Shown here piece after piece: positions 7,207-34,809 of a stretch of 64,000 nucleotides of DNA (position 1 is its first letter; each line of letters opens with the position of its first letter). The position numbers were made by a program, and so were the translations under genes. The notes beneath the pieces were generated by a model. It was not told where the DNA came from and searched no databases. It was given only the letters and a program-made list of their open reading frames with translations. The stretch covers positions 1,476,636-1,540,635 of the forward strand of contig NZ_RJJE01000017.1 in assembly GCF_003721565.1 (NCBI RefSeq), given 5' to 3'. The DNA comes from Rufibacter immobilis (GTDB lineage: Bacteria; Bacteroidota; Bacteroidia; Cytophagales; Hymenobacteraceae).

Positions 7207-7242
7207 ATGACCTTTGTCACCTCAGCCACAGATCCTTATCAG
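7207..7242. promoter_or_regulatory. Tandem oxygen-regulon operators at hemA
   Basis: Proximal site ATGAC-CTTT-GTCAC at 7207-7220. A degenerate second site CAGAT-CCTT-ATCAG at 7229-7242 is exactly 22 bp away centre to centre. Palindromes of CRP/FNR type. Confidence 0.7.
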
Positions 7243-7279
7243 GTTCTATCACTCCTGGCACCGCCACCCGCCCGTTTTT

Positions 7280-7308
7280 GCGTTTAAGGGCTCTTTTTCC
7301 AAAAACAG
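7280..7308. repeat. Palindromic repeat, truncated copy
   Basis: Left arm and loop (GCGTTTAAGGGCTCTTTTTC then AAAAACAG) are present; the rest of the right arm is missing. Confidence 0.65.
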
Positions 7309-7358
7309 GATGAAACCAGCCGAAGCACCGGCAGCCGCTTTTGCAAGAGAGATTTCTT

Positions 7359-7397
7359 GCGTTTAGGGGCTCTTTTTCCAAAAATAGCCCCTAAACG
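7359..7397. repeat. Palindromic repeat at the end of the signalling operon
   Basis: Near-symmetric copy 20 bases after the stop of the receiver-CRP gene; likely terminator of the four-gene operon. Confidence 0.88.
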
Positions 7398-7417
7398 AAA
7401 AAAAGTATTTTTAAAAG

Positions 7418-8479
7418 CTAGTTCCGCATTTTGGCCAGCTTCTCCACGTTGAGAATGGTGATTTTACCGCCGTTGATGCTGATGAGCTTTTCGTCTTTAA
7501 AGTCTGAGAGCGTCCGGATGACGGTTTCCTTGGAGGCGCCCACAATGTTGGCCAGGTCTTCGCGCGACACCGGTACTTTGGCCTCCTGCCCCTGGTTTTG
7601 CTGGTACTGCTTCTCCACTAACAGCAGGGCCTCGGCCACCCGCTTGCGCACCGAGTTATAAGCCAGTTTCAGGAGCCGTTCCTCGCGGTCGGCGAGGTTG
7701 CCGGAGAGGATCTTGATGAACTTGTTGGCCACGTCGCGGTTCTGGTACAGCAGCGAGTTGAATTCCTCTTTGTTGATGATGCACACCTCACAATCTTCCA
7801 GCGCCTCCGCCGATTCGCGGTACGTCTGGTCTTCCAGCAGGTCTAAATACCCAATGAACTCGCCCTCCTTGTACAGGTTGGTGATGTACTCGCGACCCTC
7901 CTCGTTGGTCTTGTAGGTTTTCACCTTGCCTTTGTTCAGGAAAAACAGGGCGTGCGGGTACTGGCCTTCGGCGAAGAGCTGCTGCTTTTTCTTGAACACA
8001 GAGATTTTGCGCTCATTGGAAATGAGGCTGTTGAGGTCTTCCAGGCCTTTGGCCTCCTGGATGAACTCGTTCAGCCCCTGGGTGTTTTTCTGGAAATCGG
8101 CGCGCAGGATCTCGTTTTTCTTCAGGCGCATCTCCACCGCATCCAGCAGTTCCAGGTCATCGAAGGGTTTGGTAAGGTAATCGTCGGCCCCCAGGTTCAT
8201 GCCTTTCCTGAAATCGTCTTTCTCAGACTTGGCGGTAAGGAAAATAAACGGAATGCCCGAGGTGGCCGGGTTCTTGCTGAGCATGTGCAGCACGCCATAC
8301 CCGTCCAGTTGCGGCATCATGATGTCACAGATAATGAGATCGGGTTTCTCGGTTTTGGCCAGTTCCACACCGGCTTTTCCGTGCTCGGCCTCCAGCACAT
8401 CGTAATTGGCCAGAGACAGAATCTCGGCTATGTTCTCACGTATTTCGGTGTTGTCTTCTATGAGCAGTATCTTTTTCAT
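7418..8479 (-). CDS. Receiver-CRP/FNR fusion transcription regulator
   Basis: 353 residues. Receiver domain 1-120 with acidic Glu8/Asp9, phosphoacceptor Asp52 (CDIMMP), Thr82 and Lys104; cyclic-nucleotide-binding-type beta-roll about 150-265; CRP-type helix-turn-helix about 270-345. The recognition helix GASKETVIRTL keeps Glu318 and Arg322, the E-x-x-x-R pair by which CRP and FNR read TGA half-sites. There is no N-terminal FNR Cys cluster. It works like FixJ and FixK joined in one chain. Last gene of the signalling operon, overlapping the kinase before it by four bases. Proposed to bind the ATGAC-N4-GTCAT operators in this window (inference). Confidence 0.93.
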   Translation of the reverse strand: MKKILLIEDNTEIRENIAEILSLANYDVLEAEHGKAGVELAKTEKPDLIICDIMMPQLDGYGVLHMLSKNPATSGIPFIFLTAKSEKDDFRKGMNLGADDYLTKPFDDLELLDAVEMRLKKNEILRADFQKNTQGLNEFIQEAKGLEDLNSLISNERKISVFKKKQQLFAEGQYPHALFFLNKGKVKTYKTNEEGREYITNLYKEGEFIGYLDLLEDQTYRESAEALEDCEVCIINKEEFNSLLYQNRDVANKFIKILSGNLADREERLLKLAYNSVRKRVAEALLLVEKQYQQNQGQEAKVPVSREDLANIVGASKETVIRTLSDFKDEKLISINGGKITILNVEKLAKMRN

Positions 8480-9708
8480 AGGCTGGGGGTTTTATGAAAC
8501 TGTACCGTAAAAGTGGTGCCCTCGTTCTGCTGGCTGGTGTAGGTAAGTGTTCCGTTCATGATGTCTACGTAGCGCTTCACAATGTTAAGCCCTAAACCGG
8601 TGCCTTCATAGTTGACGGCGTTATGCGCCCGGAAGAAAGGCGTGAACAGGTGGGCCTGGTCGGCTTCTGGAATTCCTATGCCCTGGTCCTGCACCTGCAC
8701 CATTGCCTGCTGGGCGTCTACCTGCGTGGTAATCATGATTTCCTTGCCCTCTGCCGAATATTTGCTCGCGTTGGAAAGCAGGTTGAGCACAATGTTCTTG
8801 AGCAATTGTTTGTCTAAGGTCACTATAGACGGTTGCCCCTCATGCCGGTAATGGATCTGCTGACCCACTTTTATGTAGCCCTGCATCTCATCAATGATTT
8901 CTTCTATAAACGGCACCAGGTCAAAAGCGGTGGGCACGTTGTAGATCTTGCCTTCCTCAATACGGCTCAGAGACAGGAAATCATTGAGAATACCCGTAAG
9001 ATTATGCACCGCCGATTTAATGCGGTTCACGTGCTTCTGCCGCTTGTCGTCTTCCTCCGTGAGCTTGTACTTGCCAATAAGTGAGGCCGAAGACAGCACC
9101 GTGCTCAGCGGGGTCCGGAACTCATGCGAAGCAATGGTCACAAAGCGGGACTTGAGCTCGTTCAAATCTTTCTCTTTCTGGAGGGCTTTCTTGATTTCCT
9201 GCTGGGCTTCAAACAGGCTGCGGTTGGTTTCCTCCAGTTGCGTGATGGCCCGGGCCAGTTCCTGCGTTCGGTCTGCCACGCGCTGCTCCAGGCCGGCGTT
9301 CAGCTGCTGGATCTCCAGTAGGTTGTTGGCGTGTTCTATGCTGTAGCGGATGGAACGCTCCAGGTCAAACGGCGTGAGGCGGCCTTTGATAAGGAAATCA
9401 GAGGCCCCCAGGCGCATGGCCCGTTCATCGGTCTCGCGGTCGCTTTGGCCGGTGAGCAGGATGAACGGGGCTTCCGCCCCGCTGGCCAAAGCCTGGGTGA
9501 TAAGCTCCAGTCCGTCATGGGCGCCTAGCCGGTAATCTACCAGGTACACGTCATGCTGTTTCAAGGCGATTTTTTCCAAAGCAGCCCCAAACGACGAAGC
9601 CCACTCCAGCAGGTACGTGCGCGCCGGAATGTCAGAGATAATGTCGCGGGTAATGATGAAATCATCCTCGTCATCGTCTACCAGCAACACCCGTATGGTC
9701 TCAGTCAT
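8476..9708 (-). CDS. Receiver-histidine kinase hybrid
   Basis: 410 residues, no membrane segment. N-terminal receiver with acidic pocket Asp11-Asp13 and phosphoacceptor Asp58 (LVDYRLG), coiled coil about 125-185, HisKA with His195 in IASHEFRTPLS, then the ATPase domain (NLLSNASKYS, QDQGIGIPE, GTGLGLNIVKRY). With the receiver in front, its kinase activity is probably set by phosphate from another kinase, most simply the PAS kinase two genes upstream, and its output goes to the receiver-CRP protein whose start overlaps its stop by four bases. That phosphorelay order is inference from gene order. Confidence 0.93.
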   Translation of the reverse strand: MTETIRVLLVDDDEDDFIITRDIISDIPARTYLLEWASSFGAALEKIALKQHDVYLVDYRLGAHDGLELITQALASGAEAPFILLTGQSDRETDERAMRLGASDFLIKGRLTPFDLERSIRYSIEHANNLLEIQQLNAGLEQRVADRTQELARAITQLEETNRSLFEAQQEIKKALQKEKDLNELKSRFVTIASHEFRTPLSTVLSSASLIGKYKLTEEDDKRQKHVNRIKSAVHNLTGILNDFLSLSRIEEGKIYNVPTAFDLVPFIEEIIDEMQGYIKVGQQIHYRHEGQPSIVTLDKQLLKNIVLNLLSNASKYSAEGKEIMITTQVDAQQAMVQVQDQGIGIPEADQAHLFTPFFRAHNAVNYEGTGLGLNIVKRYVDIMNGTLTYTSQQNEGTTFTVQFHKTPSL

Positions 9709-9722
9709 TTCTTCAGGTTAGG

Positions 9723-10178
9723 TTATTTATGGCTGCTGTTGGGCAGTTGCACCAGCTCAAACCAATATTCGGTGAGGGTTTTGGTCATGTCTACCAGAGA
9801 GGCAAACGTGACGGGCTTGGTGATGAAGGAACTCACCCCCAGGTCATAGGTCCTGATAATGTCTTCCTCGGCTTTGGAGGTAGTGAGCACCACCACCGGC
9901 AGTAGCTTTAAATCAGCATCTTGCTTGATTTCCTTAAGTGCCTCGCGGCCATCTTTCTTAGGCATGTTCAGATCCAGCAAAATGAGCCCTGGTAAGGGGT
10001 ATTTCTCTTTGTCTGCGTATTTGCCCCGGTGGTGCAGGTAGTCCATGAGCTCCTCGCCGTTTTCCACAAAGTGGAGCGTGTTTTTGAGGTGGTTCTCCTC
10101 CAATGCCTCTTTCAGGAGCATCCGGTCTTCGGCATCATCATCGGCAATGAGAATGGCTATGCTTTTACTTTGCATCAT
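9723..10178 (-). CDS. Single-domain response regulator (CheY/Rcp1-like)
   Basis: 151 residues consisting only of a receiver: Asp13-Asp15, phosphoacceptor Asp69 (LILLDLNMP), Thr/Ser near 100 (VVLTTSKAE) and Lys of FITKP. It carries the roughly 10-residue insertion before the Asp typical of Rcp1-type receivers (HHRGKYADKEKYPLPG). No output domain, so it acts by protein contact or as a phosphate shuttle. It overlaps the stop of the PAS kinase by 14 bases and lies 14 bases before the hybrid kinase. Confidence 0.92.
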   Translation of the reverse strand: MMQSKSIAILIADDDAEDRMLLKEALEENHLKNTLHFVENGEELMDYLHHRGKYADKEKYPLPGLILLDLNMPKKDGREALKEIKQDADLKLLPVVVLTTSKAEEDIIRTYDLGVSSFITKPVTFASLVDMTKTLTEYWFELVQLPNSSHK

Positions 10179-11739
10179 AATTCTGTTCTTGAGGTTGTTT
10201 CAGCGCCAGGGTAATAATGAAGGTGGTGCCCACGCCCGGCTGGCTGCGGGCGGTAATGTCGCCGCCGTGCCTAATGGCAATCTTGCGGCAAATGGCCAGC
10301 CCAATGCCGGAGCCTTCATACTTCTGCCCTTCCAGGCGCTGAAAAATATTAAAAATACGGTCCAGGTATTTCTCCTGAAACCCAATGCCGTTGTCTTCTA
10401 TGTAAATTTCCACCACTTCATCGCCGGGCGTGGCGGTGAGGTGGGCGGTACGCTGCACCACCTGCGCCCAGATGGAGATAACGGGTTGCTCCCCCTCCTT
10501 CCGGAACTTGATGGCGTTGCTGATGAGGTTCTGGAACAGCTGGCGCATCTGGGTGGGCTCGGCTTCAATGACGGGTAGCCAGGAGCGGTTAATCTGTGTA
10601 CCGGTCTGCTCAATGGTGATCTCCAGGTCAGAGAGCACGCCGGTGAGCACGGCATCCAGGTCTACGCGCACAAACGGCGTGGCCTTGCTGGTAACCCGGG
10701 AAAACGCCAACAGATCATTGATGAGGTTCTGCATGCGGCTGGCCGCGTTGAGCATACGCTCCACGTAGTCTTTGCCCTGGTCGCTGAGGTTGTCGTATTC
10801 CTTGGTCATGAGCCGGTCCCCGAAGGCCTGGATCTTGCGCAGCGGTTCCTGCAAATCATGCGAGGAAACGTAGGCGAAATCCTGAAGCTCTAGGTTGCTG
10901 CGCATGAGCTCGGCGGCGTAGCGCCGAAGCCGTTCCTCGTTCAGTTTCTGCTGGGTGATGTCATGGATGAAGCCGGTGTACACTTTGCGGTCTGCCAGCT
11001 GCACTTCACTGATGCTCAGGTAAAAAGGAAACGTGCTACCGTCTTTGCGCAGCCCGGTCACCTCCCGGCCAATGCCAATGATCTTGCGTCTGCCGGTGGT
11101 TTCATAGTTGTGGATGTACCCGTCATGGCGGCTATGGTCGGGCTCAGGCATGAGCACGTTGATGCTGCGGCCCAGCAGTTCCTCGGCCTGAAAACCAAAC
11201 AAACGGGCCGCCGAGGGATTCACCATTTCCATGATGCCGCGGGTGTCAATGGTGATGATGCCGTCTACCGCTGCCTGTATAATGGAGTTGATCTTGTTCT
11301 CGCTCTCGCGCAGGGCGGCTTCGGCTTTCTTGAGGTTGGTGATGTCATGGATAATGCCCGTGAAAATCTGCTTGTCCTGCAACTTCACCTCACTGATGCT
11401 GAGCAGGAACGGGAACACGGAGCCGTCTTTCCGGCGCCCCAGCACCTCACGGCCTTTGCCAATGATCTGCCCCACGCCGGTGCGGTGGTAATTTTCAATG
11501 TACTGGTCGTGCAGGCTGCGGTCTGGCTCGGGCATCAGCATCCTGATGTTCTGCCCAATGATATTTTCTGGGAGATAGCCAAAGATGCGGGCTGCGGCTG
11601 GGTTTACGCTTTCAATAGTGCCGCGCGCATCAATGGTGATGATGCCGTCAATGGCGGTTTCAATAATGGCCTGTAGCCGGTTTTTGTCATCAATACTCTG
11701 CTGGCGGGCAGCGGCAAATTCATTCAACTCTTCACTCAT
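10165..11739 (-). CDS. Soluble histidine kinase with two FixL-like haem PAS domains
   Basis: 524 residues from the ATG at 11739. PAS1 about 20-140 and PAS2 about 148-268, each with the FixL pattern: His77 (SLHDQY) and Arg97 (GKGREV) in the first, His205 (SRHDGY) and Arg225 (GIGREV) in the second, both 20 residues apart as are the haem His200 and Arg220 of Bradyrhizobium FixL. Then HisKA with His294 (SSHDLQEPL) and the ATPase domain (NLISNAIKF, DNGIGF, GSGIGLAIC). No membrane helix. The frame is open to 11808, but that ATG lies inside the operator and upstream of the -7 box, so 11739 is chosen. Likely an oxygen sensor; haem binding is inference. Confidence 0.93.
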   Translation of the reverse strand: MSEELNEFAAARQQSIDDKNRLQAIIETAIDGIITIDARGTIESVNPAAARIFGYLPENIIGQNIRMLMPEPDRSLHDQYIENYHRTGVGQIIGKGREVLGRRKDGSVFPFLLSISEVKLQDKQIFTGIIHDITNLKKAEAALRESENKINSIIQAAVDGIITIDTRGIMEMVNPSAARLFGFQAEELLGRSINVLMPEPDHSRHDGYIHNYETTGRRKIIGIGREVTGLRKDGSTFPFYLSISEVQLADRKVYTGFIHDITQQKLNEERLRRYAAELMRSNLELQDFAYVSSHDLQEPLRKIQAFGDRLMTKEYDNLSDQGKDYVERMLNAASRMQNLINDLLAFSRVTSKATPFVRVDLDAVLTGVLSDLEITIEQTGTQINRSWLPVIEAEPTQMRQLFQNLISNAIKFRKEGEQPVISIWAQVVQRTAHLTATPGDEVVEIYIEDNGIGFQEKYLDRIFNIFQRLEGQKYEGSGIGLAICRKIAIRHGGDITARSQPGVGTTFIITLALKQPQEQNYDAK

Positions 11740-11763
11740 GCGGTCTTTTTTTCTCTCCCAAGC

Positions 11764-11771
11764 CAAAGATA
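11764..11771 (-). promoter_or_regulatory. -7 box of the PAS kinase operon
   Basis: TATCTTTG, a full TAnnTTTG match, 34 bp from the operator centre at 11801.5. Transcription would start near 11757, 18 bases before the ATG at 11739. Confidence 0.7.
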
Positions 11772-11794
11772 GCTTTTCTACCATCAATACAAGA

Positions 11795-11830
11795 ATGACT
11801 AATGTCATCTTCCTTCCTGCCCAAGGTCAT
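11795..11830. promoter_or_regulatory. Tandem oxygen-regulon operators shared by PAS kinase operon and usp1
   Basis: ATGAC-TAAT-GTCAT (11795-11808), a perfect palindrome, and CTGCC-CAAG-GTCAT (11817-11830), one good half-site, 22 bp apart. Each is the nearer site for one of the two divergent promoters. This implies that the signalling operon controls itself. Confidence 0.75.
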
Positions 11831-11852
11831 TTAGGGTGCGGCCATATTGCCG

Positions 11853-11860
11853 TAATCTTG
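11853..11860 (+). promoter_or_regulatory. -7 box of usp1
   Basis: TAATCTTG, one mismatch from TAnnTTTG, 33 bp from the site centred at 11823.5 and 55 bp from that at 11801.5. Confidence 0.5.
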
Positions 11861-11902
11861 CACTGTCTTATCCAGTTCCACCCACAAAAACCCTCTACAG
11901 CT

Positions 11903-12778
11903 ATGATAACCATTCTAGTCCCCACTGATTTCTCTGGCGTTGCCGCCAACGCCCTGGAATACGCCGTTGCCATGGCCTCCGTTACCAAAGCCCATATTCT
12001 GCTGGCCCACGTGGTGGACATTCCGGCCATGGCCGCCGCCTATGAGGTGAACATGGGCTACATCAGCTCCCAGGTACTGGCCGACTGCGAAAAGGAAATG
12101 CAGACCCTGGTGCAGCGCCTGCGGGCAAATGTGGCAGTAGAGGTAGACGGAATCTGCACCTCCGGCAAGCTGGTGGCGCAGGTGAATGAAGTAGTGTCTA
12201 AATACAAAGTAGACCTGGTGGTGATGGGATCGCACGGTCAAAGCGGCTTGCTGGACCGTTTATTTGGCACCAACGCACTGGCGTACATGAACAATGCCCA
12301 TTGCCCGGTGCTGGTGGTACCGCCGACCGCTACGTTCAAGGGCATCCACAACATTGCCTTTGCCTATGACCTGGACAGCGAGAGTACGTTTGTGTTACAG
12401 CAGCTTTTCAGGTTGAGTGCTCCTTTCCAGGCGAAGGTGTCTATTATTAACTGCCTCTCAGAACGCCAACTCAACATTGTGCCAGACCAGCCGCTGCTGC
12501 AATACATCACAGAACACTTCGCTCAGGAGAACTATTGCCTGGTGCAGCGCAGAGAAGACGACGTGGTCACCGGAATTCTCAGTTTTGTGCAGGAAAACCA
12601 AATGGATGTGCTGGCGGTGTCTACTCATGAGCGCATTTTGCTGGAACAAGTACTGCACACCAGCGTGACCAAACAATTGCTCTTCAAAACCCAGGTTCCG
12701 CTGCTCGCCATTCAGGAAAATCCTTATGCCGCAGAAGTCAAGCACAAATTTCTTACGCAACTGGAAGAAAGCAACTAA
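11903..12778 (+). CDS. Universal stress protein, two UspA domains
   Basis: 291 residues: UspA domain 1 about 1-145 and domain 2 about 148-280. Domain 1 has an intact nucleotide motif G-x2-G-x9-G-T (GSHGQSGLLDRLFGT); domain 2 is diverged and lacks it. The ATG at 11903 (MITILVPTDFS) is the family start; the longer upstream frame has no support. Divergent from the PAS kinase operon and sharing its two operators, so it is expected to rise under low oxygen. Two more usp genes are in the window (16895, 57266). The exact role of such proteins is usually unknown. Confidence 0.92.
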   Translation: MITILVPTDFSGVAANALEYAVAMASVTKAHILLAHVVDIPAMAAAYEVNMGYISSQVLADCEKEMQTLVQRLRANVAVEVDGICTSGKLVAQVNEVVSKYKVDLVVMGSHGQSGLLDRLFGTNALAYMNNAHCPVLVVPPTATFKGIHNIAFAYDLDSESTFVLQQLFRLSAPFQAKVSIINCLSERQLNIVPDQPLLQYITEHFAQENYCLVQRREDDVVTGILSFVQENQMDVLAVSTHERILLEQVLHTSVTKQLLFKTQVPLLAIQENPYAAEVKHKFLTQLEESN

Positions 12779-15279: not shown

Positions 15280-16674
15280 CTAGATTGCTTTGCTGAACGT
15301 GGTGCTGAACTCCTGCTGCGTTTGCTTCACCTTTTGGTCAAAAAGCATGCAGATGTTCCGGATGAAGGGCTGGCCCTGCGGCGTTACCACCAATGACCGG
15401 GCTCTGAAAGTAATTAAACCTTCATCTTCCATTTCCAGCAGAGCCTCACGGGTTTGGTCATCCAGCAGAAATGCGATGTCTCTGTGCAGTTCCAGCTCTC
15501 CTTTGCAGGCAATGTCCAGAATGGCTTCTTTTCTGATCAGGTCTTCCGGGGTAAGCAAATGTCCTTTGAGAATAGCCAGATCTCCGGCGGCAATACCGGC
15601 TTTGTACTCCTCCACTTTTTTCAGGTTCTGGAGATACCCATATTTTGCGTCACTAATGGAAGAGGCGCCCAGGCCAATCAACAGATCTGTGTGGCAGGTG
15701 GTGTACCCCATGAAGTTACGGTGTAGCGTACCATTCTGCTGGGCCAGGAACAGGGCGTCATGCGGTAGCGCGAAATGGTCCATTCCTATGTCATGATACC
15801 CTAAGGCTTTCAACTTCTCAAGCCCCAGTTCATACAGAGCCCTTTTGGCTGCGCCCGAAGGCAGGTCTTTCTCTGAGTAGCCGCGCTGGCTGGGCTTCAC
15901 CCACGGCACGTGGGCGTAAGAGTAGAACGCAATGCGGTCTGGCTTGAGCTGACCCGCCAGATCAATGGTCTCGGCCACGCTGGCCAGCGTCTGGTGCGGA
16001 AGTCCGTAGATCAAATCAAAGTTCACCGATTCATAGCCAATGCGGCGGGCGTCTTGAGTGGCCCGCAACACATTCTCAAACGGCTGAATGCGGTTAATGG
16101 TCAGCTGCACCAAAGGATCAAAATCCTGGATCCCGAAGCTCACGCGCCGGAAGCCCAGATCATAGAGGGTCTGCAAGTGCTCGGCGGTGGTGTTGTTGGG
16201 ATGGCCCTCAAAACTGAATTCCCGCTCCGGATGAATCTCCGCGGTGGCCAAGATGCCTTCCATCAACAGTTTCAGGTTCTCTGGGCTGAAGAACGTGGGC
16301 GTTCCGCCCCCCAAGTGCAATTCTCTGATGATCGGCTTCTCAGAGAAATGGTTCAGGTATTGCTGCCACTCGGCCAGTAGGGTTTCAATATATCCTTGCT
16401 CCACCCCATGGTTTTTAGTGATGCGGGTGTTGCAGCCGCAATACGTACACAGAGATTCACAGAACGGCAGGTGCAGGTACAGACTGATCCCCTTGGTAGC
16501 GTTTGACTCTGTGAAGGTCTTCTCCACCACCTCAAACCACTGTGCTGCCGTAGGGGCTGCTTTGTCCCAGAACGGAACGGTGGGATAGCTGGTGTAACGG
16601 GGGGCCGATACATTGTATTTCTGGATAAGCGCTTCGGGGGAAATCACAGGGGACGTATCACTAGTCATTTTCAT
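15280..16674 (-). CDS. hemN: Oxygen-independent coproporphyrinogen III oxidase
   Basis: Radical-SAM enzyme that converts coproporphyrinogen III to protoporphyrinogen IX without O2. About 464 residues. Iron-sulphur motif C-x3-C-x2-C in LPFCESLCTYCGCNTRITKNHG, the form found in true HemN rather than its HemW relatives, then GGGTPTFF. The frame is open to 16740, but the -7 box TACTTTTG at 16703-16710 puts transcription start near 16696, so the start is the ATG at 16674 or the one two codons later. It carries a perfect-half palindromic operator and belongs with hemA and the cbb3 genes. Confidence 0.95.
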   Translation of the reverse strand: MKMTSDTSPVISPEALIQKYNVSAPRYTSYPTVPFWDKAAPTAAQWFEVVEKTFTESNATKGISLYLHLPFCESLCTYCGCNTRITKNHGVEQGYIETLLAEWQQYLNHFSEKPIIRELHLGGGTPTFFSPENLKLLMEGILATAEIHPEREFSFEGHPNNTTAEHLQTLYDLGFRRVSFGIQDFDPLVQLTINRIQPFENVLRATQDARRIGYESVNFDLIYGLPHQTLASVAETIDLAGQLKPDRIAFYSYAHVPWVKPSQRGYSEKDLPSGAAKRALYELGLEKLKALGYHDIGMDHFALPHDALFLAQQNGTLHRNFMGYTTCHTDLLIGLGASSISDAKYGYLQNLKKVEEYKAGIAAGDLAILKGHLLTPEDLIRKEAILDIACKGELELHRDIAFLLDDQTREALLEMEDEGLITFRARSLVVTPQGQPFIRNICMLFDQKVKQTQQEFSTTFSKAI

Positions 16675-16702: not shown

Positions 16703-16710
16703 CAAAAGTA
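16703..16710 (-). promoter_or_regulatory. -7 box of hemN
   Basis: TACTTTTG, full TAnnTTTG match; 33 bp from the half-site at 16733-16746 and 55 bp from the strong site at 16755-16768. Confidence 0.7.
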
Positions 16711-16732: not shown

Positions 16733-16768
16733 ATGACCATAGCGGTTCAGAAAGATGATAAATGTCAT
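16733..16768. promoter_or_regulatory. Tandem oxygen-regulon operators at hemN
   Basis: Strong site ATGAT-AAAT-GTCAT (16755-16768) is the distal one here; the proximal position 22 bp away keeps only the half-site ATGAC (16733-16737). This reverses the strength order seen at the other promoters. Confidence 0.7.
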
Positions 16769-16782
16769 CTTTCTGAACCGCT
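16741..16782. promoter_or_regulatory. 42-bp perfect palindrome around the hemN operator
   Basis: 18-bp perfect arms (16741-16758 and 16765-16782) with a 6-base centre, containing the operator at its middle, followed by a T-run on the plus strand. May act as operator and also as a terminator for plus-strand transcription. Confidence 0.75.
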
Positions 16783-16833: not shown

Positions 16834-16877
16834 TTCTGTTTAGGGGCTGTTTTTGGAAAAAGAGCCCCTAAACAGAA
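16834..16877. repeat. Palindromic repeat after usp2
   Basis: Symmetric copy with outer stem TTCTG/CAGAA, 17 bases past the usp2 stop; likely terminator of the ccoG operon. Confidence 0.9.
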
Positions 16878-19042: not shown

Positions 19043-20443
19043 TTAGTGGCCCGGACCCAGGAATTTGGTTTTCTCCGTGGCAATGAGTTTATCGCCCACG
19101 TACACGCCCACTTTTATCTCAGTGGTGGTGCCGTGCAAATTGGCCTTGGGAATTTCAGCGAAGAAAACTCCTTCGGCCAAGCCTTGTTCCGGCAGTTCCA
19201 GTCCACTACGCACCAGCCTAATGGTTCCCTGCGGCTCTATCAGTTTCAAGGTGATGGGCAGCTTTTCAGTGGTTTTATTGATGACCGAGATGTTGTAGAG
19301 GTTGCTGATTTGGCCGTCCTGGGTTTTCTGGTACAACATGCCCGGCGTGCGCAGAATGGTGGCATCAATGTTCTCACGGGTGACCAGCAGGGTCACAAAA
19401 CCGGCCATCAAAAGCACCAGCACCGCAGTATAGCTTTTCATGCGGCCCGTGAACGTCCAGGGCTTGCCCTCGGCGATGGTCTCTTCTGAGGCGTATTTGA
19501 TCAGGTTCTGCGGTTTGCCAATCATGTCCATGATGCTGTTGCAGGCATCAATGCAGGCGGTGCAGTTAATGCATTCCATCTGCTGGGCTCCGTTCCGGAT
19601 GTCAATCCCCGTAGGGCAGACCTGCACGCACTGGCGGCAGTCAATACAGTCGCCGGCGGTTCTTACCTGGTTCTTTCTCAGTTTCTCCCGGGGTTCGCCG
19701 CGCACGTAGTCATAGGCGATGACGGTGGTTTTCTTGTCCATCATCACGCCCTGCAGCCTGCCGTAGGGGCACACTATGGTACACACCTGCTCTCTAAACC
19801 GGGCGAACACCCCGTAGAAAATAGCCGTGAAAACAAGCAGTGAGATGAGGCCGCCCAGGTGGTTGGCCGGAGAGTCTGTGACAATGGCTTTGAGGGCGTC
19901 AATGCCTATGATGTAGGCCAGGAAGGTGTTGGCGATCAGGAACGAGATGAACACGAAAATGCCGTGCTTGGCCGTCTTCTTCCAGATTTTCTCGGTGGTC
20001 CATTCGGCTTTATCCAAGGCTTTCTGTTTGGTGAAATCGCCCTCAATCCAATACTCAATGCGGCGGAACACCATCTCCAGGAAAATGGTCTGCGGACAAA
20101 CCCAGCCGCAGAACACGCGCCCGTACACCACCGTGAACAGAATAATGAACACGATAAAGGCCATGAAGCCCACCAGCAGAATAAAGAAATCCTGAGGCCA
20201 GAAAATCATCCCGAAGATGATGAACTTGCGCTCCACCAGGTTGAGCATGAGCACCGGCAAGCCGTTGATCTTCAGGAACGGCCCAATGAACAGCAACGCC
20301 AGAAAGCCGTAACTTACCAACTTGCGGTATTGGTACAGCTTTCCGTTGGGCTTTTTAGGATAAAGCCACACCCGTTTCCCTTCTTTATCTACCGTGGCGA
20401 TGGTGTCTCTGAACGACTCCCTGTCCACTACTGCCTGACCCAT
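19043..20443 (-). CDS. ccoG: cbb3 oxidase accessory ferredoxin CcoG/FixG
   Basis: 466 residues. Membrane helices in the first 220 residues, then two 4Fe-4S clusters in CIDCRQCVQVCPTGIDIRNG and CINCTACIDACNSIM, a further helix near 340 and a C-terminal periplasmic FixG beta domain. CcoG is known as a cupric reductase that supplies Cu(I) for the oxidase. First gene of ccoG-ccoH-safE-usp2. Its promoter has the perfect palindrome ATGAC-GTGC-GTCAT 33 bp from a GAAATTTG -7 box. Confidence 0.96.
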   Translation of the reverse strand: MGQAVVDRESFRDTIATVDKEGKRVWLYPKKPNGKLYQYRKLVSYGFLALLFIGPFLKINGLPVLMLNLVERKFIIFGMIFWPQDFFILLVGFMAFIVFIILFTVVYGRVFCGWVCPQTIFLEMVFRRIEYWIEGDFTKQKALDKAEWTTEKIWKKTAKHGIFVFISFLIANTFLAYIIGIDALKAIVTDSPANHLGGLISLLVFTAIFYGVFARFREQVCTIVCPYGRLQGVMMDKKTTVIAYDYVRGEPREKLRKNQVRTAGDCIDCRQCVQVCPTGIDIRNGAQQMECINCTACIDACNSIMDMIGKPQNLIKYASEETIAEGKPWTFTGRMKSYTAVLVLLMAGFVTLLVTRENIDATILRTPGMLYQKTQDGQISNLYNISVINKTTEKLPITLKLIEPQGTIRLVRSGLELPEQGLAEGVFFAEIPKANLHGTTTEIKVGVYVGDKLIATEKTKFLGPGH

Positions 20444-20513: not shown

Positions 20514-20521
20514 CAAATTTC
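20514..20521 (-). promoter_or_regulatory. -7 box of ccoG
   Basis: GAAATTTG, identical to the hemA box and at the same 33-bp distance from the operator. Confidence 0.6.
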
Positions 20522-20543: not shown

Positions 20544-20579
20544 ATGACGTGCGTCATCTGGGGCGGTGATTGTTGTTAA
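20544..20579. promoter_or_regulatory. Tandem oxygen-regulon operators at ccoG
   Basis: ATGAC-GTGC-GTCAT (20544-20557) and, 22 bp further, GTGAT-TGTT-GTTAA (20566-20579), whose sequence is nearly that of the distal ccoNO site. Confidence 0.78.
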
Positions 20580-22495: not shown

Positions 22496-24679
22496 TTACT
22501 TTTCCTCTTTCACTTTAATGTCGGTACCCAGGCGTTGCAGGTAGGCAATGAGGGCGACAATCTCTTTCTCCGGTTTCACCTCAATGCCTTCTTTGGCCAG
22601 CTCAGCGGAGATTTGGGCCGCCTGCTTTTTCAGGTCTTCGTTGGCCAATTTGGCGTAACCAGCCGGGTAAGGAGTACCCATTTTCTGCATGGCCTCAATT
22701 TTGGCCTCAGTGGAAGAAATATCCAGATCCTCTTCAAAGAGCCATGGGTACGCTGGCATGATAGAGCCTGGTGACATGCTGGTTGGGTCTAACATGTGGT
22801 GGTAGTGCCAGCTATGCGGGTACTTACCTCCTACGCGGTGCAAATCTGGCCCGGTACGCTTAGAACCCCACAGGAACGGACGGTCATACACGAACTCACC
22901 GGCTTTGGAGTACTCGCCGTAACGCTCGGTCTCTGAGCGGAACGGACGCACCATCTGGGTGTGGCAGTTCACGCAACCCTCTTTGATATAGACATCGCGG
23001 CCCTGTAATTCAAGGGAGGTGTAAGGCTTCACGGCGGCAATGGTAGGTACGTTAGAATCTACCAGGAACGTAGGGATCATCTCCACCAGACCACCAATCA
23101 GGATGGCGACGGTAGCCCATACCGCCATTTGGATAGGGCGGCGCTCAATCCAACGGTGCCAGTGGCCGCCGCTGTGCTCAATACCTTTGAAAACAGGCAG
23201 CATAGGGGCCGCATGGGCTTCCTCGTTGGCCAGCAGTTTACCGCTTTTCACGGTTTTCACTACGTTGTAGATCATCAGGAACACCCCGGCCAGGTACAAC
23301 ACCCCGCCAATGCCGCGCAGGTAGTACATAGGCACCAGTTGCAGCACGGTCTCCAGGAAGTTAGAGTACTGCAACAGACCTTCCTGGTTGAACTGTTTCC
23401 ACATGAGGCCTTGGGTAAAGCCCGCCCAGTACATAGGAATGGCGTAGAACAGGATACCCAGCGTGCCTAACCAGAAGTGCCAGTTGGCTAGTTTATTGGA
23501 GTACAGTTTGGTTTGGAAGATGCGGGGCAGCAACCAGTACAGAATACCGAAGGTCAGGAAACCGTTCCAGCCCAGGGCACCCACGTGCACGTGTGCTACT
23601 ATCCAGTCAGTGAAGTGGGCAATGGCGTTCACGTTTTTCAAGGACAGCATAGGGCCTTCAAACGTAGCCATACCGTAGGCCGTGATGGCCACCACCATGA
23701 ACTTGAGCACCGGCTCTTCCTTCACTTTATCCCAGGCACCGCGCAGGGTTAACAGACCGTTGATCATACCGCCCCAGCTGGGCGCAATCAGCATCACAGA
23801 GAATACCACCCCCAGTGACTGTGCCCAATCTGGCAACGCAGTGTACAACAAGTGGTGCGGACCAGCCCAGATGTAAATGAAAATCAGGGACCAGAAGTGG
23901 ATGATGGATAATCTATAGGAGTAAACCGGGCGGTTGGCTGCTTTGGGCAGGAAGTAGTACATCATGCCCAGGTAAGGCGTAGTTAAAAAGAACGCGACCG
24001 CGTTGTGGCCATACCACCACTGTACCAGCGCATCCTGCACCCCGGCGTAGCCAGAGTAGCTTTTCATGAAGCTTACCGGAATCTCATAGGAGTTCACAAT
24101 GTGCAGCACCGCCACGGTCAAGAAAGTGGCAATGTAGAACCAGATCCCCACGTACAGGTGACGCTCACGTCTCTTGAAGATGGTCCCGAACATGTTCCAG
24201 CCGAAGATCACCCACACCAGCGTAATGGCAATGTCAATAGGCCACTCCAGCTCGGCGTACTCCTTACTGGTGGTATAACCCAAAGGTAAGGTTATCACCG
24301 CCGACACGATGATTAACTGCCAGGCCCAGAAGTGCAGGTTACTCAAAAAGTCTGAGTACATTCTGGTTTTGCAGAGGCGCTGCAAACTGTAGTACACGCC
24401 CATGAAAATACCGTTGCCCACAAACGCGAAAATAACGGCGTTGGTGTGCAGCGGCCGCACCCGCCCGAAGGTGGTGTAGGGGGTACCCATGTTGAGCTCA
24501 GGACGGGCCAGCTGGAAGGCGATGATGACGCCAATAAGCATGCCCGCCACGCCCCAGAACAGGGTAGCGTACCCGAAGTTTCTCACGATCTTGTTATCGT
24601 AGAAGAAGGTGTCCAGCCAATTGTCGTCTCGGGTGGGGACGACGGGCTGCGGTGCTTGAGTAAGTGTCTGCGTTGACAT
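22496..24679 (-). CDS. ccoNO: cbb3 oxidase fused catalytic and monohaem subunits CcoN-CcoO
   Basis: 727 residues. The CcoN part (about 1-480) has 12 or more helices and the haem/CuB ligands: LHTNAVIFAF, WYGHNAVAFFLT, WAGPHHLLYT and VAHVHVGALGWNG. The CcoO part (about 525-727) starts after a membrane helix and has the c-haem site EGCVNCHTQMVRPFRSE and the axial Met region SPGSIMPAYPW. It reduces O2 with high affinity and pumps protons. The fusion is common in Bacteroidota. Its promoter carries the best pair of tandem operators in the window. Confidence 0.97.
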   Translation of the reverse strand: MSTQTLTQAPQPVVPTRDDNWLDTFFYDNKIVRNFGYATLFWGVAGMLIGVIIAFQLARPELNMGTPYTTFGRVRPLHTNAVIFAFVGNGIFMGVYYSLQRLCKTRMYSDFLSNLHFWAWQLIIVSAVITLPLGYTTSKEYAELEWPIDIAITLVWVIFGWNMFGTIFKRRERHLYVGIWFYIATFLTVAVLHIVNSYEIPVSFMKSYSGYAGVQDALVQWWYGHNAVAFFLTTPYLGMMYYFLPKAANRPVYSYRLSIIHFWSLIFIYIWAGPHHLLYTALPDWAQSLGVVFSVMLIAPSWGGMINGLLTLRGAWDKVKEEPVLKFMVVAITAYGMATFEGPMLSLKNVNAIAHFTDWIVAHVHVGALGWNGFLTFGILYWLLPRIFQTKLYSNKLANWHFWLGTLGILFYAIPMYWAGFTQGLMWKQFNQEGLLQYSNFLETVLQLVPMYYLRGIGGVLYLAGVFLMIYNVVKTVKSGKLLANEEAHAAPMLPVFKGIEHSGGHWHRWIERRPIQMAVWATVAILIGGLVEMIPTFLVDSNVPTIAAVKPYTSLELQGRDVYIKEGCVNCHTQMVRPFRSETERYGEYSKAGEFVYDRPFLWGSKRTGPDLHRVGGKYPHSWHYHHMLDPTSMSPGSIMPAYPWLFEEDLDISSTEAKIEAMQKMGTPYPAGYAKLANEDLKKQAAQISAELAKEGIEVKPEKEIVALIAYLQRLGTDIKVKEEK

Positions 24680-24703: not shown

Positions 24704-24711
24704 CAAAATTC
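24704..24711 (-). promoter_or_regulatory. -7 box of ccoNO
   Basis: GAATTTTG, 33 bp from the proximal and 55 bp from the distal operator; start predicted near 24697, about 18 bases before the ATG. Confidence 0.6.
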
Positions 24712-24733: not shown

Positions 24734-24769
24734 ATGACGCTGGTCAGTTTAGGGGGTGATTGTTGTCAG
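24734..24769. promoter_or_regulatory. Tandem oxygen-regulon operators at ccoNO
   Basis: ATGAC-GCTG-GTCAG (24734-24747) and GTGAT-TGTT-GTCAG (24756-24769), 22 bp centre to centre. Both copies are well conserved here. Confidence 0.8.
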
Positions 24770-29525: not shown

Positions 29526-29532
29526 CTGTTTC

Positions 29533-31321: not shown

Positions 31322-31717
31322 ATGAAAAAGCAAGAAGAGTCAGTCCTGCATTATGCTGTTACCACTAGTAAGAAGTTAGCAAGAACAAAAATTGTTTGGT
31401 TGTACTTACTAGTTGCAGTTGCCGCTTTTTATCTGAACTATAACAAAGAGGGCTTACTCAGAGCTTTGCAATATTCACTAATGATGGGCGGGTTGTTTTA
31501 CTTCGTATATTTCTTCTATGAACTAATTCATTTTATAAAGGTCAACACGACTCCTAGATCTAAAATTATATTTCATGGCATACTATTTTTTCTACTTGTT
31601 ATTAGCTCTATGTATTTGCTAGCATGGACCCAACTTGCAGAAATGATAGTATATAGTTTAGGAGCCGCATCAATATGGCACGTGATACTTTGGATCAAAG
31701 AAAAACGCAAGAAATAA
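31322..31717 (+). CDS. Small hypothetical membrane protein
   Basis: 131 residues; family not recognised. Basic N-terminus (MKKQEESVLHYAVTTSKKLARTK) then three or four membrane helices (IVWLYLLVAVAAFYL, SLMMGGLFYFVYFFY, ILFFLLVISSMYLLAW, MIVYSLGAASIWHVILW) and a lysine-rich tail. AT-rich codon use, unlike its flanks, so possibly acquired. Confidence 0.65.
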   Translation: MKKQEESVLHYAVTTSKKLARTKIVWLYLLVAVAAFYLNYNKEGLLRALQYSLMMGGLFYFVYFFYELIHFIKVNTTPRSKIIFHGILFFLLVISSMYLLAWTQLAEMIVYSLGAASIWHVILWIKEKRKK

Positions 31718-32025
31718 TCATGGCATCATCTATGATTGTTCAAGTAACAATGCACCTATTTGTCCAAGACCTGTTATCGAGTGCTTATCCTATTATCAAT
31801 AATTCAAAACACAGCTTTTAATCCTTATGAAAAACGGTGTTGCGCTGAAACGCCACTATTATCATCTGGTAAATTTGTAGTGACGTTACACCGTAGCGTC
31901 GCACGCATATTGCCTCAGGTTTGCGGACAAGTGGATAGCATTAACAGGTATGACCTTTTCTTACCTAAACAGGTGCACAGTAAGTTTAACCCCTTTCCAG
32001 ATTAATCAACCACATCTATCGGTTT
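31718..32025. other. 308-bp gap
   Basis: No gene called. A frame at 31760-32005 is without recognisable features. GTAGTGACGTTACACCGTAGCGTCGC near 31877 is described only as a GC-rich short-repeat block like those at 20820. Confidence 0.4.
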
Positions 32026-32065
32026 GCGTTTAGGGGCTGTTTTTGGAAAAACGGCCCCTAAACGC
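32026..32065. repeat. Palindromic repeat after ccoS
   Basis: Symmetric 40-base copy whose end is two bases from the ccoS stop codon; likely terminator of ccoI-ccoS. Confidence 0.92.
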
Positions 32066-32067
32066 CA

Positions 32068-32238
32068 TTACCGTTTCCCTCTTTCTTGAGCGGAAGAGGT
32101 TTCCTCTTCAAAGAGAATCCGTACGGATGGGGTGTAGTCATCGTCATACTGCCCAGAGCGCACGGCCCACACAAAGGACCCCAGAAACAAAATGGCGACG
32201 GTTAAACTGATGGCTATTAACAGATAGATGATGGTCAT
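32068..32238 (-). CDS. ccoS: cbb3 oxidase maturation protein CcoS
   Basis: 56 residues, too short for a 60-residue ORF cut-off. Starts MTIIYLLIAISLTVAILFLG, one membrane helix, then the CcoS signature FVWAVRSGQYDDDYTPSVRI and a charged tail. CcoS is needed for putting haem and copper into CcoN. It starts seven bases after the ccoI stop, the usual ccoI-ccoS order. Confidence 0.95.
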   Translation of the reverse strand: MTIIYLLIAISLTVAILFLGSFVWAVRSGQYDDDYTPSVRILFEEETSSAQERGKR

Positions 32239-32245
32239 GATGGGG

Positions 32246-34690
32246 TTATTTTTTGGGTTGCAACAGCCCCATGCGCATGGCCACGTACCGCACGCCCAGC
32301 ACAGAGCAAAGAATCACACTTAAAGAACTGATGGGCATGAGAATGGCAGACACCACCGGTGTAAACAAACCGGTCACCGCCATAGAAAGCCCAATAATGT
32401 TGTACACGAAAGACACCATGAACGAGCCCAGAATCACGTTGAGCGCCCGGCGGGAGAACCGCAGAAAATGCGCCAACTGCGTGAAAGATCCGGCATCCAG
32501 AATGGCATCACAGCCCGGCGAGAAACCATTTACAGAATTAGTCACTGAGATGCCTGCATCACTCATCTGCAAGGCTCCCGCGTCATTTAAGCCATCGCCT
32601 ACCATGATCACTTTGTGGCCCTCGGCTTTCAGTTGCTCAATATAGGCCAGCTTATCGCCCGGCGACTGGTGGAACCGCAGCGTAGCTCCTGCCCCGAAAA
32701 TGCGTTGCAGATTTTCCCGTTCCGCGTCGTTGTCGCCGGAGAGCACGGCCAGTTTTTTGCCCTGGCTTTGCAGTTCCTGCACCAACTGAGGCAAGCCCTC
32801 GCGGTAATGGTTGGAGAACGTGAACACGCCTCCCTGGTCTTCGCCCAGCTGTACGTACACCCGCGTAGCCAGCCCAGTAGCCAGTTTTGCCTGTTGTCCG
32901 CCCCCGGCGTACGACCTTGAACCCACTTTCACCAGCACTCCGTCTACTACGCCCTGCACACCCTCGCCAGAAATCTCCTGGTATTGGCTCACCGCTTTAA
33001 CGGGAGCTTTCAGGAACTGGTACAATCCCTGGCTCAATGGGTGGGTGGAGTGTTGCAAAACGGCGCGTAAACGGCTTTCGTCCTCTGTACTGAGCGCATC
33101 TCCCTGGTAGGTGATGTCGGTTTGGGTGCTCTCAGTGAGGGTGCCGGTCTTGTCAAAGACAATGGTATCGGCTTTGGCCAGGGTCTCGGCCACGTCGCCG
33201 TTTTTGAGGTAGAATTTCTGCCCCCCGAAGATGCGCAGCGCGTTAGAAAGCGTAAATGGCGCACTCAAAGACAAGGCACACGGGCAGGCAATCACCAGCA
33301 CCGAGGTGAAGGCTTTGATAGCCATGTCCACATCACGGGGCACCCAGTACACCAGCGCGCCAGCCGCGATGAGCAAGGTCACGGTAATGAAGTAACCACC
33401 CACTTTGTCGGCGTAAGTACCCACCCCAAAATAGCTTTTCTCTTTCCGGAACACGTCATTGTTCCAGAGCTGCGTGAGGTAACTCTGCGACACGTCTTTG
33501 ATCACCTCCAGCTCAATACTCTCGCCCACTTGCCGTCCCCCAGCATAGATAATCTCGCCCGCCACTTTAGGCACCGGCGCCGATTCGCCCGACACGAAGC
33601 TGTAGTCAATAAACGCGGATCCGCGCAGCAGAATGGCATCGGCGGGTACCAGTTCCTGGTTTCTGATCCTGATGCGCTTGCCCGGTGTGAGTTCTTTCAC
33701 GGCGGTTACCTTCTCCTCGCCTTTCTCCAGCACGGTCACCGAAATAGGAAAATACGCTTTATAGTCTCGGTCGAAGGCCAGGGCGTCATAGGTGGTTTTC
33801 TGCACGTATTTGCCAATGAGCATGAAAAATACCAGTCCGGTGAAGGAATCCAGGTAACCGGGGCCGCTGCCCATGAAAATATCATACAAGCTCACGCAGA
33901 ACAAGGAGGCCAAGCCTAAGCTGATGGGCGTGTCCAGGTTGATGTGCCGCTGCTTCAACGACTGCCAGGCAGATTCAAAGAACCCGCGGGCGCTGTACAG
34001 CAACACCGGCAGGGCCAGCGCAATGCTCACCCAGCCGAAGAAAGACCCGAACTGCTGTTTCACCTCCTCGCCAAACGCAAAGTACTCCGGAAAGCTCAGC
34101 AACATGGTATTCCCGAAGCAGAAGCCCGCCAAACCCAGCTTAAGGTTAATCCCGAAGTCCCGCTTCTGTTTCTTTCCAGACAAGGTGGAGAGGTTCAGCA
34201 TGGGGCCGTAGCCAATTTTGTGCAGCAGCGTGACTATGTTGCTCAGCTTGGTCTTCTGCGGATTGTAAGACACAGAAACCTCCTTGCGCGGAAAATTCAC
34301 CCGCGACTCCACCACGCCCTGGTCCAGCTTAAACAGGTTTTCCAGGAGCCAGATACAGGAACTGCAGTGCATGTTGGGGATCTGGAACAGCACCTTGTGC
34401 AGGGTGTCGCTCTGGAACGTGAGCAGTTGGTTCAGTGTGGCGGCTTCGTCTAGGTACACAAACTGGTTGGCCTGCACGTCCTCAGTTGCAACGGTTACGC
34501 CCGGTTTCTCGCCGGCTTCCAGGTTATAATAAGTACAGAGATTATTGGCGTACAACAGCTCATACACGGCCTGGCAGCCCGTGCAGCAGAACGCTTTCTC
34601 TTCGGTATAAATAGGTTCGCTTTTGCACTCGTCACCGCAGTGGTAACAGTGTTCTTTTTCTTCAACAAGGGTAGTGGCAGATTCCCGCAT
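32246..34690 (-). CDS. ccoI: Copper-exporting P-type ATPase of cbb3 assembly, CcoI/FixI
   Basis: 814 residues from the ATG at 34690. N-terminal Cys-rich metal site (HCYHCGDECK, FCCTGCQAVYEL), heavy-metal domain with NMHCSSCIW, membrane copper site CPCALS, phosphorylation site DKTGTLT and hinge GDGLNDAGAL. It moves copper for loading into the oxidase. An in-frame GTG at 34714 would add eight residues, but the -7 box TACCTTTG covers 34714-34721 and transcription must begin below it, so 34690 is chosen. Confidence 0.96.
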   Translation of the reverse strand: MRESATTLVEEKEHCYHCGDECKSEPIYTEEKAFCCTGCQAVYELLYANNLCTYYNLEAGEKPGVTVATEDVQANQFVYLDEAATLNQLLTFQSDTLHKVLFQIPNMHCSSCIWLLENLFKLDQGVVESRVNFPRKEVSVSYNPQKTKLSNIVTLLHKIGYGPMLNLSTLSGKKQKRDFGINLKLGLAGFCFGNTMLLSFPEYFAFGEEVKQQFGSFFGWVSIALALPVLLYSARGFFESAWQSLKQRHINLDTPISLGLASLFCVSLYDIFMGSGPGYLDSFTGLVFFMLIGKYVQKTTYDALAFDRDYKAYFPISVTVLEKGEEKVTAVKELTPGKRIRIRNQELVPADAILLRGSAFIDYSFVSGESAPVPKVAGEIIYAGGRQVGESIELEVIKDVSQSYLTQLWNNDVFRKEKSYFGVGTYADKVGGYFITVTLLIAAGALVYWVPRDVDMAIKAFTSVLVIACPCALSLSAPFTLSNALRIFGGQKFYLKNGDVAETLAKADTIVFDKTGTLTESTQTDITYQGDALSTEDESRLRAVLQHSTHPLSQGLYQFLKAPVKAVSQYQEISGEGVQGVVDGVLVKVGSRSYAGGGQQAKLATGLATRVYVQLGEDQGGVFTFSNHYREGLPQLVQELQSQGKKLAVLSGDNDAERENLQRIFGAGATLRFHQSPGDKLAYIEQLKAEGHKVIMVGDGLNDAGALQMSDAGISVTNSVNGFSPGCDAILDAGSFTQLAHFLRFSRRALNVILGSFMVSFVYNIIGLSMAVTGLFTPVVSAILMPISSLSVILCSVLGVRYVAMRMGLLQPKK

Positions 34691-34713
34691 GGCCTTTATA
34701 TCTGATTCAAACA

Positions 34714-34721
34714 CAAAGGTA
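34714..34721 (-). promoter_or_regulatory. -7 box of ccoI
   Basis: TACCTTTG, full TAnnTTTG match, exactly 33 bp from the operator centred at 34750.5. Confidence 0.72.
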
Positions 34722-34743
34722 AATGCCCCGCCCCCGGCAGAGG

Positions 34744-34779
34744 ATGATGGTGGTCACCCCGTCACATGACCTATCTCAT
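34744..34779. promoter_or_regulatory. Tandem oxygen-regulon operators between ccoI and the 34864 gene
   Basis: ATGAT-GGTG-GTCAC (34744-34757) and ATGAC-CTAT-CTCAT (34766-34779), 22 bp apart, serving two divergent promoters with mirror-image spacing. A looser palindrome CCGTCACAT/ATGTGACGG (34759-34797) overlaps the second site. Confidence 0.75.
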
Positions 34780-34801
34780 TGATAGGCTATGTGACGGTAC
34801 G

Positions 34802-34809
34802 GATTTTTG
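34802..34809 (+). promoter_or_regulatory. -7 box of the 34864 gene
   Basis: GATTTTTG, of the same GAnnTTTG form as the hemA, ccoG and ccoNO boxes, exactly 33 bp from the operator centred at 34772.5. Confidence 0.55.

Follow-up and report, generated by a model that had tools for sequence, protein, structure and literature searches.

A tandem CRP/FNR-type operator module of fixed geometry at predicted low-oxygen promoters of Rufibacter immobilis and its relatives

The promoters of a putative low-oxygen gene cluster in Rufibacter immobilis share one operator geometry, in which two CRP/FNR-type sites lie 22 base pairs (bp) apart, centre to centre, at a fixed distance from a predicted -7 box. The window analysed here is a 64 kilobase (kb) stretch of R. 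immobilis DNA, and within it the module recurs in six intergenic stretches that lie from 7.2 to 34.8 kb. We consider it probable that these are activator-dependent low-oxygen promoters that use class II FNR-type activation with a near-obligatory pair of dimers and an exchangeable sensor. On sequence grounds, the regulator in this genome is most likely a fusion of a response receiver with a CRP-type protein (hereafter receiver-CRP), 353 amino acids long and encoded at 7418..8479 on the minus strand.

Eight promoters of the window share one geometry

The pattern RTGAY-N4-GTCA occurs ten times in the window, at seven distinct places of which three are counted on both strands. The expectation is 1.3, none of 100 shuffles reached a count of ten, and every occurrence is confined to the six regulatory regions. 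A scan for the whole module (both sites jointly matching at least 17 of 20 letters, a spacing of 22 or 23, and a box [TG]Ann[TC]TTG at 32-34), which ignored gene names but whose thresholds were chosen with the sites already known, picked out eight promoters and no others when run over the first 40 kb: those of hemA, the PAS kinase operon, usp1, hemN, ccoG, ccoNO, ccoI and the gene at 34864 (34864 gene). When spacing and box distance were varied in a 15 x 31 grid over the 64 kb, eight hits fell at 22/33-34 and two in all other cells together. Scan and grid recover the six regions and eight promoters with sites paired at 22 bp that an earlier, sequence-only reading of this DNA had described. Its box distances of 33 bp at seven promoters and 34 bp at the eighth, the PAS kinase operon, also held, whereas its assignment of the usp1 box to TAnnTTTG did not, as that box reads TAATCTTG.

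All sites and boxes below come from the module scan. Upstream of hemA on the minus strand, the proximal site GTGACAAAGGTCAT (7207..7220, also in the pattern count) is followed at 22 bp by the distal site CTGATAAGGATCTG (7229..7242), and the -7 box GAAATTTG (7177..7184) lies 33 bp from the proximal centre. The same arrangement on the same strand precedes ccoG (proximal ATGACGCACGTCAT at 20544..20557, also in the pattern count; distal TTAACAACAATCAC at 20566..20579; box GAAATTTG at 20514..20521, 33 bp) and ccoNO (proximal CTGACCAGCGTCAT at 24734..24747 and distal CTGACAACAATCAC at 24756..24769, both also in the pattern count; box GAATTTTG at 24704..24711, 33 bp). In hemN, again on the minus strand, the half-site ACCGCTATGGTCAT (16733..16746) is nearer to the box than the full palindrome ATGACATTTATCAT (16755..16768, also in the pattern count), the box TACTTTTG being at 16703..16710, 33 bp from the half-site. 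The hemN start is probably 16674 or 16668, because the start of the long open reading frame, 16740, lies upstream of this box. The distal hemN site is also the mid-point of a perfect inverted repeat at 16741-16782 (18-bp arms, 6-bp loop) that is followed by a T-run on the plus strand.

Bidirectional arrangements, with both sites common to two divergent promoters, are seen in two of the six regions. The operator at 11795..11808 (also in the pattern count) is proximal for the PAS kinase operon (minus strand) and distal for usp1 (plus strand), and the operator at 11817..11830 has the opposite roles; the boxes are TATCTTTG at 11764..11771 on the minus strand, 34 bp away, and TAATCTTG at 11853..11860 on the plus strand, 33 bp away. 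Likewise, 34744..34757 (also in the pattern count) is proximal for ccoI (minus) and distal for the 34864 gene (plus), and 34766..34779 distal for ccoI and proximal for the 34864 gene, with boxes TACCTTTG at 34714..34721 (minus) and GATTTTTG at 34802..34809 (plus), each at 33 bp. A 17-bp inverted repeat, 88% complementary, at 34759-34797 overlaps this second shared operator.

The geometry recurs in relatives

The sequence-only reading had held the fixed geometry hard to explain by chance and had called for a comparison of the same promoters in relatives. Both the 22-bp spacing and the box at 33 recur in 80 loci retrieved by ccoNO protein search, some of them from metagenome bins, whose titles include Rufibacter, Adhaeribacter, Pontibacter, Hymenobacter, Botryobacter, Chryseolinea, Pedobacter and others. 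The loci hold 498 TGAY-N4-RTCA cores. Among the 139 pairs of cores no more than 60 bp apart, 119 are spaced at 22 bp (57 loci) and 13 at 23 bp (7 loci), and the remaining seven are single occurrences at other distances, none of them 21 or 24. This recurrence in relatives goes far past what chance would give. Four control patterns yielded two pairs altogether and none at 22, although fewer control pairs are to be expected because these patterns, with 60-113 instances each, are rarer than TGAY-N4-RTCA.

For the 132 pairs at 22 or 23 bp, 117 direction-cases have the box [TG]Ann[TC]TTG at a distance of 33, two have it at 32 and three at 34, with one or two counts at each of the other distances; 100 of the pairs have such a box at 32-34. 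When the box was relaxed post hoc to NAnn[TC]TT[GA], it lay exactly at 33 for 128 of the 132 pairs, the first base of G-ending relaxed boxes being G in 85, T in 32 and C in 23. The grid over the 80 loci has its maximum at 22/33 (162 of 276 hits), and we interpret the values at spacings 19, 25, 26 and 28 as register shadows of overlapping letters like TGATGACAATCA. The module itself is the fixed part, because its distance to the ccoN start varies widely. Rows of three or four sites in a register of 22 or 22/23/22 bp were also seen (L185, 17481-17559; L149, 1501-1556), with boxes at 33 on both outer sides of the row in L185.

A consensus of 85 dissimilar promoters, in which the searched letters are fixed by construction and only the other positions carry information, has a T-tract past the proximal site at the position of a -33 element and TTTGTA at the box. 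The letters of the distal and proximal sites are not identical, and per-gene consensuses are broadly concordant. FNR-type operators have the form TTGAT-N4-ATCAA; here the outermost operator base is weakly conserved and mostly not T, and the TGAY-N4-RTCA core is present in the window's sites and was imposed by the search in the consensus. The counts favour those halves of the two sites that face each other (downstream in the distal site, upstream in the proximal one), an observation from which we make no claim, as we suspect few orthologous promoters behind it. The -7 box consensus of Bacteroidota is TAnnTTTG, and with it a proximal centre 33 bp from the box centre would lie at about -41, which would be the class II position of an activator site (near -41.5). 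This fits the earlier view that these are CRP/FNR-type operators.

A second site (score of at least 6/8, at 22 or 23 bp) accompanies 143 of the 149 perfect sites that have a box at 33, which suggests cooperative binding by two dimers, as the sequence-only reading had supposed. Two dimers might instead bind independently, the distal one adding a class I contact with the polymerase alpha subunit and none with its neighbour; the distal centre, at about -63, is indeed near the class I position of -61.5. Independent sites would nevertheless allow other helical-phase spacings, and the 80 loci show pairs at 22 and 23 but none at 21 and none at 24, which argues for dimer contact or for a precise arrangement. 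The boxes found on both sides of 22 of the 132 pairs indicate a bidirectional use that suits a symmetrical unit. We therefore regard independent sites as rather unlikely.

A receiver-CRP is the most likely regulator

The receiver-CRP combines the Pfam domains Response_reg, cNMP_binding and HTH_Crp_2, and the matches to PF00027 (1.5e-21) and PF13545 (8.9e-19) point to a beta-roll and a Crp-type helix-turn-helix. Its matches in the PDB are Crp/Fnr chains and receiver chains, the best chain for the CRP part being 2gau, which we take to originate from Porphyromonas gingivalis. The phospho-acceptor pocket is intact, with D9, D52, T82 and K104 present in all 66 distinct full-length homologues and position 8 occupied by E in 65 and by D in one. 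E318 and R322 of the recognition helix are invariant in the 66 receiver-CRP and in 35 of 35 FNR-like homologues; this E and R are the residues that read TGA half-sites. The N-terminal cysteine cluster of the iron-sulfur (Fe-S) FNR subgroup does not occur in the receiver-CRP, whose N-terminus is the receiver, and its cysteines 230 and 233 are not conserved. On visual comparison with the E. coli CRP motif, the Arg of the cAMP-binding Arg-Ser pair is apparently replaced.

The regulator gene is the last of an operon-like run on the minus strand that comprises a FixL-like kinase with two PAS domains (10165..11808), a stand-alone receiver protein (9723..10178), a receiver-histidine kinase (8476..9708) and the regulator; the domains were assigned with Pfam, and the two middle proteins are probable relay steps by position. 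The run starts with the module, and self-activation of the sensor operon is therefore likely. In another genome of the genus, L271 (1486-8277) holds a second pair of PAS kinase and receiver-CRP adjoining YceI genes, one of which is preceded by a 22/33 promoter of its own.

The closest relative of known structure for the PAS domains of the kinase is FixL (chain 8js5, 4e-39). In FixL a His serves as haem ligand and an Arg downstream of it is regulatory, and by their sequence both PAS domains of the R. immobilis kinase retain the two residues. The retrieved loci encode 17 PAS kinases. All 13 that reach 44% identity or more keep His and Arg, and at least eight of these 13 directly adjoin a receiver-CRP gene; the four weaker matches keep the His in four cases and the Arg in two.

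From the haem-PAS features, the intact receiver pocket and the target genes, we infer that low oxygen is the signal. Haem-PAS domains can bind several gases, and nitric oxide, redox or another cue might act in place of oxygen: some targets elsewhere are YceI, BON, Hsp20 and stress proteins, and seven of 20 receiver-CRP genomes lack ccoNO, five of these seven still having tandem sites. Such a signal seems unlikely, however, as FixL is the structurally known protein most similar to the PAS domains and the core targets (cbb3 oxidase, its assembly genes, hemN and hemA) also make up the FixK/FnrN set described in PMC4999443.

The composite motif marks a coherent set of genes

The R. immobilis assembly spans 4.77 megabases (Mb) in 17 contigs. 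The sequence-only reading had taken a genome-wide scatter of matches as evidence against itself, and the answer depends on the motif: single palindromes (RTGAY-N4-RTCAY) are dispersed over 71 places, with 34 in the control, whereas the composite of two sites and box (up to three mismatches) gives nine hits against none for the reversed control. Seven of the nine lie in the window cluster, one precedes a heme A synthase gene (COX15-CtaA; one mismatch, the sole hit outside the window with no more than one) and one is a probable hairpin. The last, C16:45863 at an acetyl-CoA hydrolase gene (three mismatches), was set aside as probable chance, because similar hairpins occur in five other genomes of the genus, including G051, which lacks the regulator. 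This concentration in the cluster plus heme A synthase supports the earlier idea of a coherent regulon.

The putative targets in the window are ccoNO, encoding fused cbb3 oxidase subunits I and II (22496..24679, minus strand; Pfam COX1 + FixO), ccoG/FixG (19043..20443, minus; Fer4_18 + FixG_C), the copper ATPase gene ccoI (32246..34714, minus; E1-E2_ATPase, ATPase-cat_bd, HMA), hemA for glutamyl-tRNA reductase (5894..7156, minus; GlutR domains), usp1 for a universal stress protein (11903..12778, plus; Usp) and hemN (15280..16674, minus; Radical_SAM), which has the moved start and a name that we presume from the look of the N-terminus of its product. The 34864 gene (34864..35337, plus) encodes a 157-amino-acid protein for which a Pfam search gave no match, and module-preceded relatives of it are found in four of 80 other loci. 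In other genera and families, the genes behind the module include ccoN, ccoI, hemN, hemA and genes for universal stress proteins, HypA, YceI, BON, Hsp20 and Rrf2, the ccoN, hemN and hemA names being assigned there by sequence look. Together with the FixL-type haem-PAS features, the cbb3 oxidase, hemN and hemA genes support the low-oxygen regulon that had been predicted.

Putative regulator and module tend to occur together

Across 200 genomes of the family, the nearer genera often encode close orthologues of the receiver-CRP, and other genera encode orthologues of about 50% identity. A strict tandem was found in 38 of 296 genomes of the phylum and its control in none of the 296. Among genomes of the family, order and class, with the own genome not counted, 27 of 31 tandem-positive genomes encode a full-length receiver-CRP as against 15 of 38 tandem-negative ones (Fisher p 6e-5, a value that ignores kinship); the 38 are those searched for the regulator out of 41, with G478, G482 and G486 of the same class left out. 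Outside the class, the regulator was sought in the six tandem-positive genomes only, and one Fisher test used a cut of six promoters that was set with the counts already known. As we read the coordinates, the regulator gene and a listed tandem site are separated by no more than about 25 kb in at least 15 of the 27 genomes.

The association within the genus supports the role given earlier to the receiver-CRP. Of the 16 genomes, R. immobilis included, the 14 with the regulator carry 6-15 composite promoters, while the two without it carry none (G006) and one, hairpin-like (G051); neither G006 nor G051 has ccoNO or an FNR-like match. Grouping 53 family genomes by the E-value of their receiver-CRP match gave 20 strong (full-length type), 20 weaker and 13 with neither regulator, in which a strict tandem at 22 or 23 was present in 18, 13 and three, respectively (control, two of 53), and ccoNO, at E up to 1e-60, in 13, none and none.

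Several counts weigh against the proposed reading of these promoters. Tandem sites sought without a box occur at 18 places in the own genome, six of them in the window, and the control gives 10. At 32 of the 132 pairs in the relatives' loci no [TG]Ann[TC]TTG stands at 32-34, many reading CAnnTTTG instead. Pairs without such a box number 20 of 32 in L141-L170, 23 of 36 in L171-L190 and 8 of 28 in L228-L255; the 22 (or 23) spacing was selected for in the first and third of these sets, the second was chosen around such sites and has sites in common with the first, and box distance alone is informative. As for the genomes, 15 of 42 with a full-length receiver-CRP have no strict tandem, a pattern that misses half-sites, and four of the 31 tandem-positive ones lack a full-length receiver-CRP, two of these having an FNR-like homologue and the other two, G309 and G348, giving no hit at E up to 1e-40. 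Five of the six tandem-positive genomes outside the class likewise gave no hit. Finally, the three genomes with strict tandems among the 13 with neither regulator include G006, which has one match.

FNR-like regulators adjoin the same module

Eleven loci of the weaker-match group were read. In eight of them an FNR-like gene is complete and its product carries a cluster of cysteines at the N-terminus; the tandem lies 150-215 bp 3' of this gene, with a box at 33 or 34. The best receiver-CRP match of these eight genomes, which presumably belong to Hymenobacter, is too weak for a full-length protein. A ninth locus, L255, has a partial FNR-like gene only, at greater distance, and L245 and L252 show no FNR-like gene at the locus. 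The FNR-like proteins carry CxxC and further cysteines and appear by sequence to be of the Fe-S FNR type. The module likewise lies 3' of a receiver-less FNR-like gene in G470 and in G344, which has a receiver-CRP as well. As receiver-less FNR-like genes adjoin the same module, the geometry belongs to a wider FNR/CRP group and not to the receiver, and a view of it confined to the receiver-CRP is too narrow.

Where neither regulator was found, L230 and L237 have hairpin-like 23-bp pairs without a box, and in one such genome three further tandem matches form a repeat array. The 23-bp hairpin-like pairs of L237 and L245 lie near a small CRP-like gene, that of L237 having no detected helix-turn-helix.

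These genomes also bear on how the spacing is set. Receiver domains commonly dimerise, and at E up to 1e-25 the FNR-like query finds no second homologue in R. immobilis that could serve as another candidate, so that receivers might cross-link neighbouring receiver-CRP dimers into a tetramer and thereby fix the 22 bp. The eight family genomes with the module behind a receiver-less FNR-like gene, along with G470 and G344, speak against this, and genomes with the FNR-like protein only make it quite improbable. Very improbable is a heterotypic pair, with the FNR type and the receiver-CRP taking one site each: the distal and proximal consensus letters do differ, and Pontibacter loci around ccoNO account for 20 of the 35 FNR-like proteins, but in the own genome and the four other genomes of the genus queried all matches to the FNR query were of the receiver-CRP type, and these genomes, like those with the FNR type only, retain both sites.

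Apart from the module, a 36-bp palindrome, GTTTAGGGGCT-N-TTTTT-NN-AAAAA-N-AGCCCCTAAAC, is dispersed in the window (4717-4752, 7361-7396, 16838-16873, 37283-37318 and more), where half-elements were also seen. With up to three mismatches it occurs at 869 places in the own genome, 108 in one genome of the genus and 8-40 in six others, and at none in two genomes of the genus and four of other families; the control gave none in all 14. It looks like an expanded repeat.

Discussion

We propose that a FixL-like haem-PAS kinase phosphorylates the receiver-CRP, probably through the two relay proteins of the same operon, and that two receiver-CRP dimers would then occupy the two TGAY-N4-RTCA sites of a pair at their 22-bp spacing. 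The nearer dimer, in the class II position over an absent -33 element, would contact RNA polymerase, and the farther one would stabilise it and may itself touch the polymerase. The weak -7 box, whose first base is often G or C, would leave the promoter reliant on its activator. In the bidirectional regions one site pair would serve genes in both directions, with each dimer in the proximal position for one gene, and the sensor operon, having the module, would activate itself. Regulators with N-terminal cysteines would use the 22/33 module too, so that the sensing input varies and the operator geometry stays fixed.

At class II CRP/FNR promoters of E. coli, a palindrome near -41.5 covers the -35 region. 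The promoters described here would resemble these in the position of the proximal palindrome and differ in the near-obligatory second site 22 bp upstream and in a TAnnTTTG-type box with a degenerate first base. Class III CRP promoters of E. coli have two CRP sites at variable spacing, the upstream one more distant. Here too two dimers per promoter are predicted, but the spacing is 22, less often 23.

The closest parallel is the FixL-FixJ-FixK/FnrN circuitry of Alphaproteobacteria, in which the haem-PAS kinase FixL governs cco, hemN and hemA targets and FixK, a CRP/FNR-type activator without an Fe-S cluster, coexists with or replaces the Fe-S-type FnrN, as set out in PMC4999443. The predicted kinase type, the putative targets and a CRP/FNR activator without an Fe-S cluster by sequence, alongside or in place of an Fe-S type, would be common to both. 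Unlike there, the receiver and the FixK-like part form one protein here, so that the two-tier FixJ/FixK cascade would be collapsed, and the operators are paired at 22 bp, with the box 33 bp away. In PMC4999443, 'tandem' is used only of partner proteins (two instances) and never of sites. Within Bacteroidota, Crp/Fnr proteins are described from Porphyromonas gingivalis, among them CrpPg, which does not use cAMP; in contrast to the receiver-CRP, no receiver domain is mentioned there, and the article (PMC12040651) contains none of the words tandem, palindrom and receiver. Among the matches listed from titles and abstract openings of open-licence literature, none describes for Bacteroidota a receiver-CRP that has input from FixL or FNR sites in a fixed tandem.

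More broadly, and here our confidence is evenly divided, the FNR/CRP-type low-oxygen activators of Bacteroidota may act as an obligatory dimer pair on a rigid 22/33 module, and evolution may have exchanged a cysteine-cluster FNR and a receiver driven by a FixL-like kinase (FixJ and FixK merged) while the geometry was kept. For a group of Bacteroidota the module would amount to a promoter grammar that is recognisable from sequence alone and predicts oxygen-responsive genes along with their start sites. In the receiver-CRP a single molecule seems to unite what are separate FixJ and FixK steps in rhizobia, and the module would offer a natural case in which sensors differ and operator geometry does not, making the action of two FNR-type dimers at 22 bp on RNA polymerase open to test.

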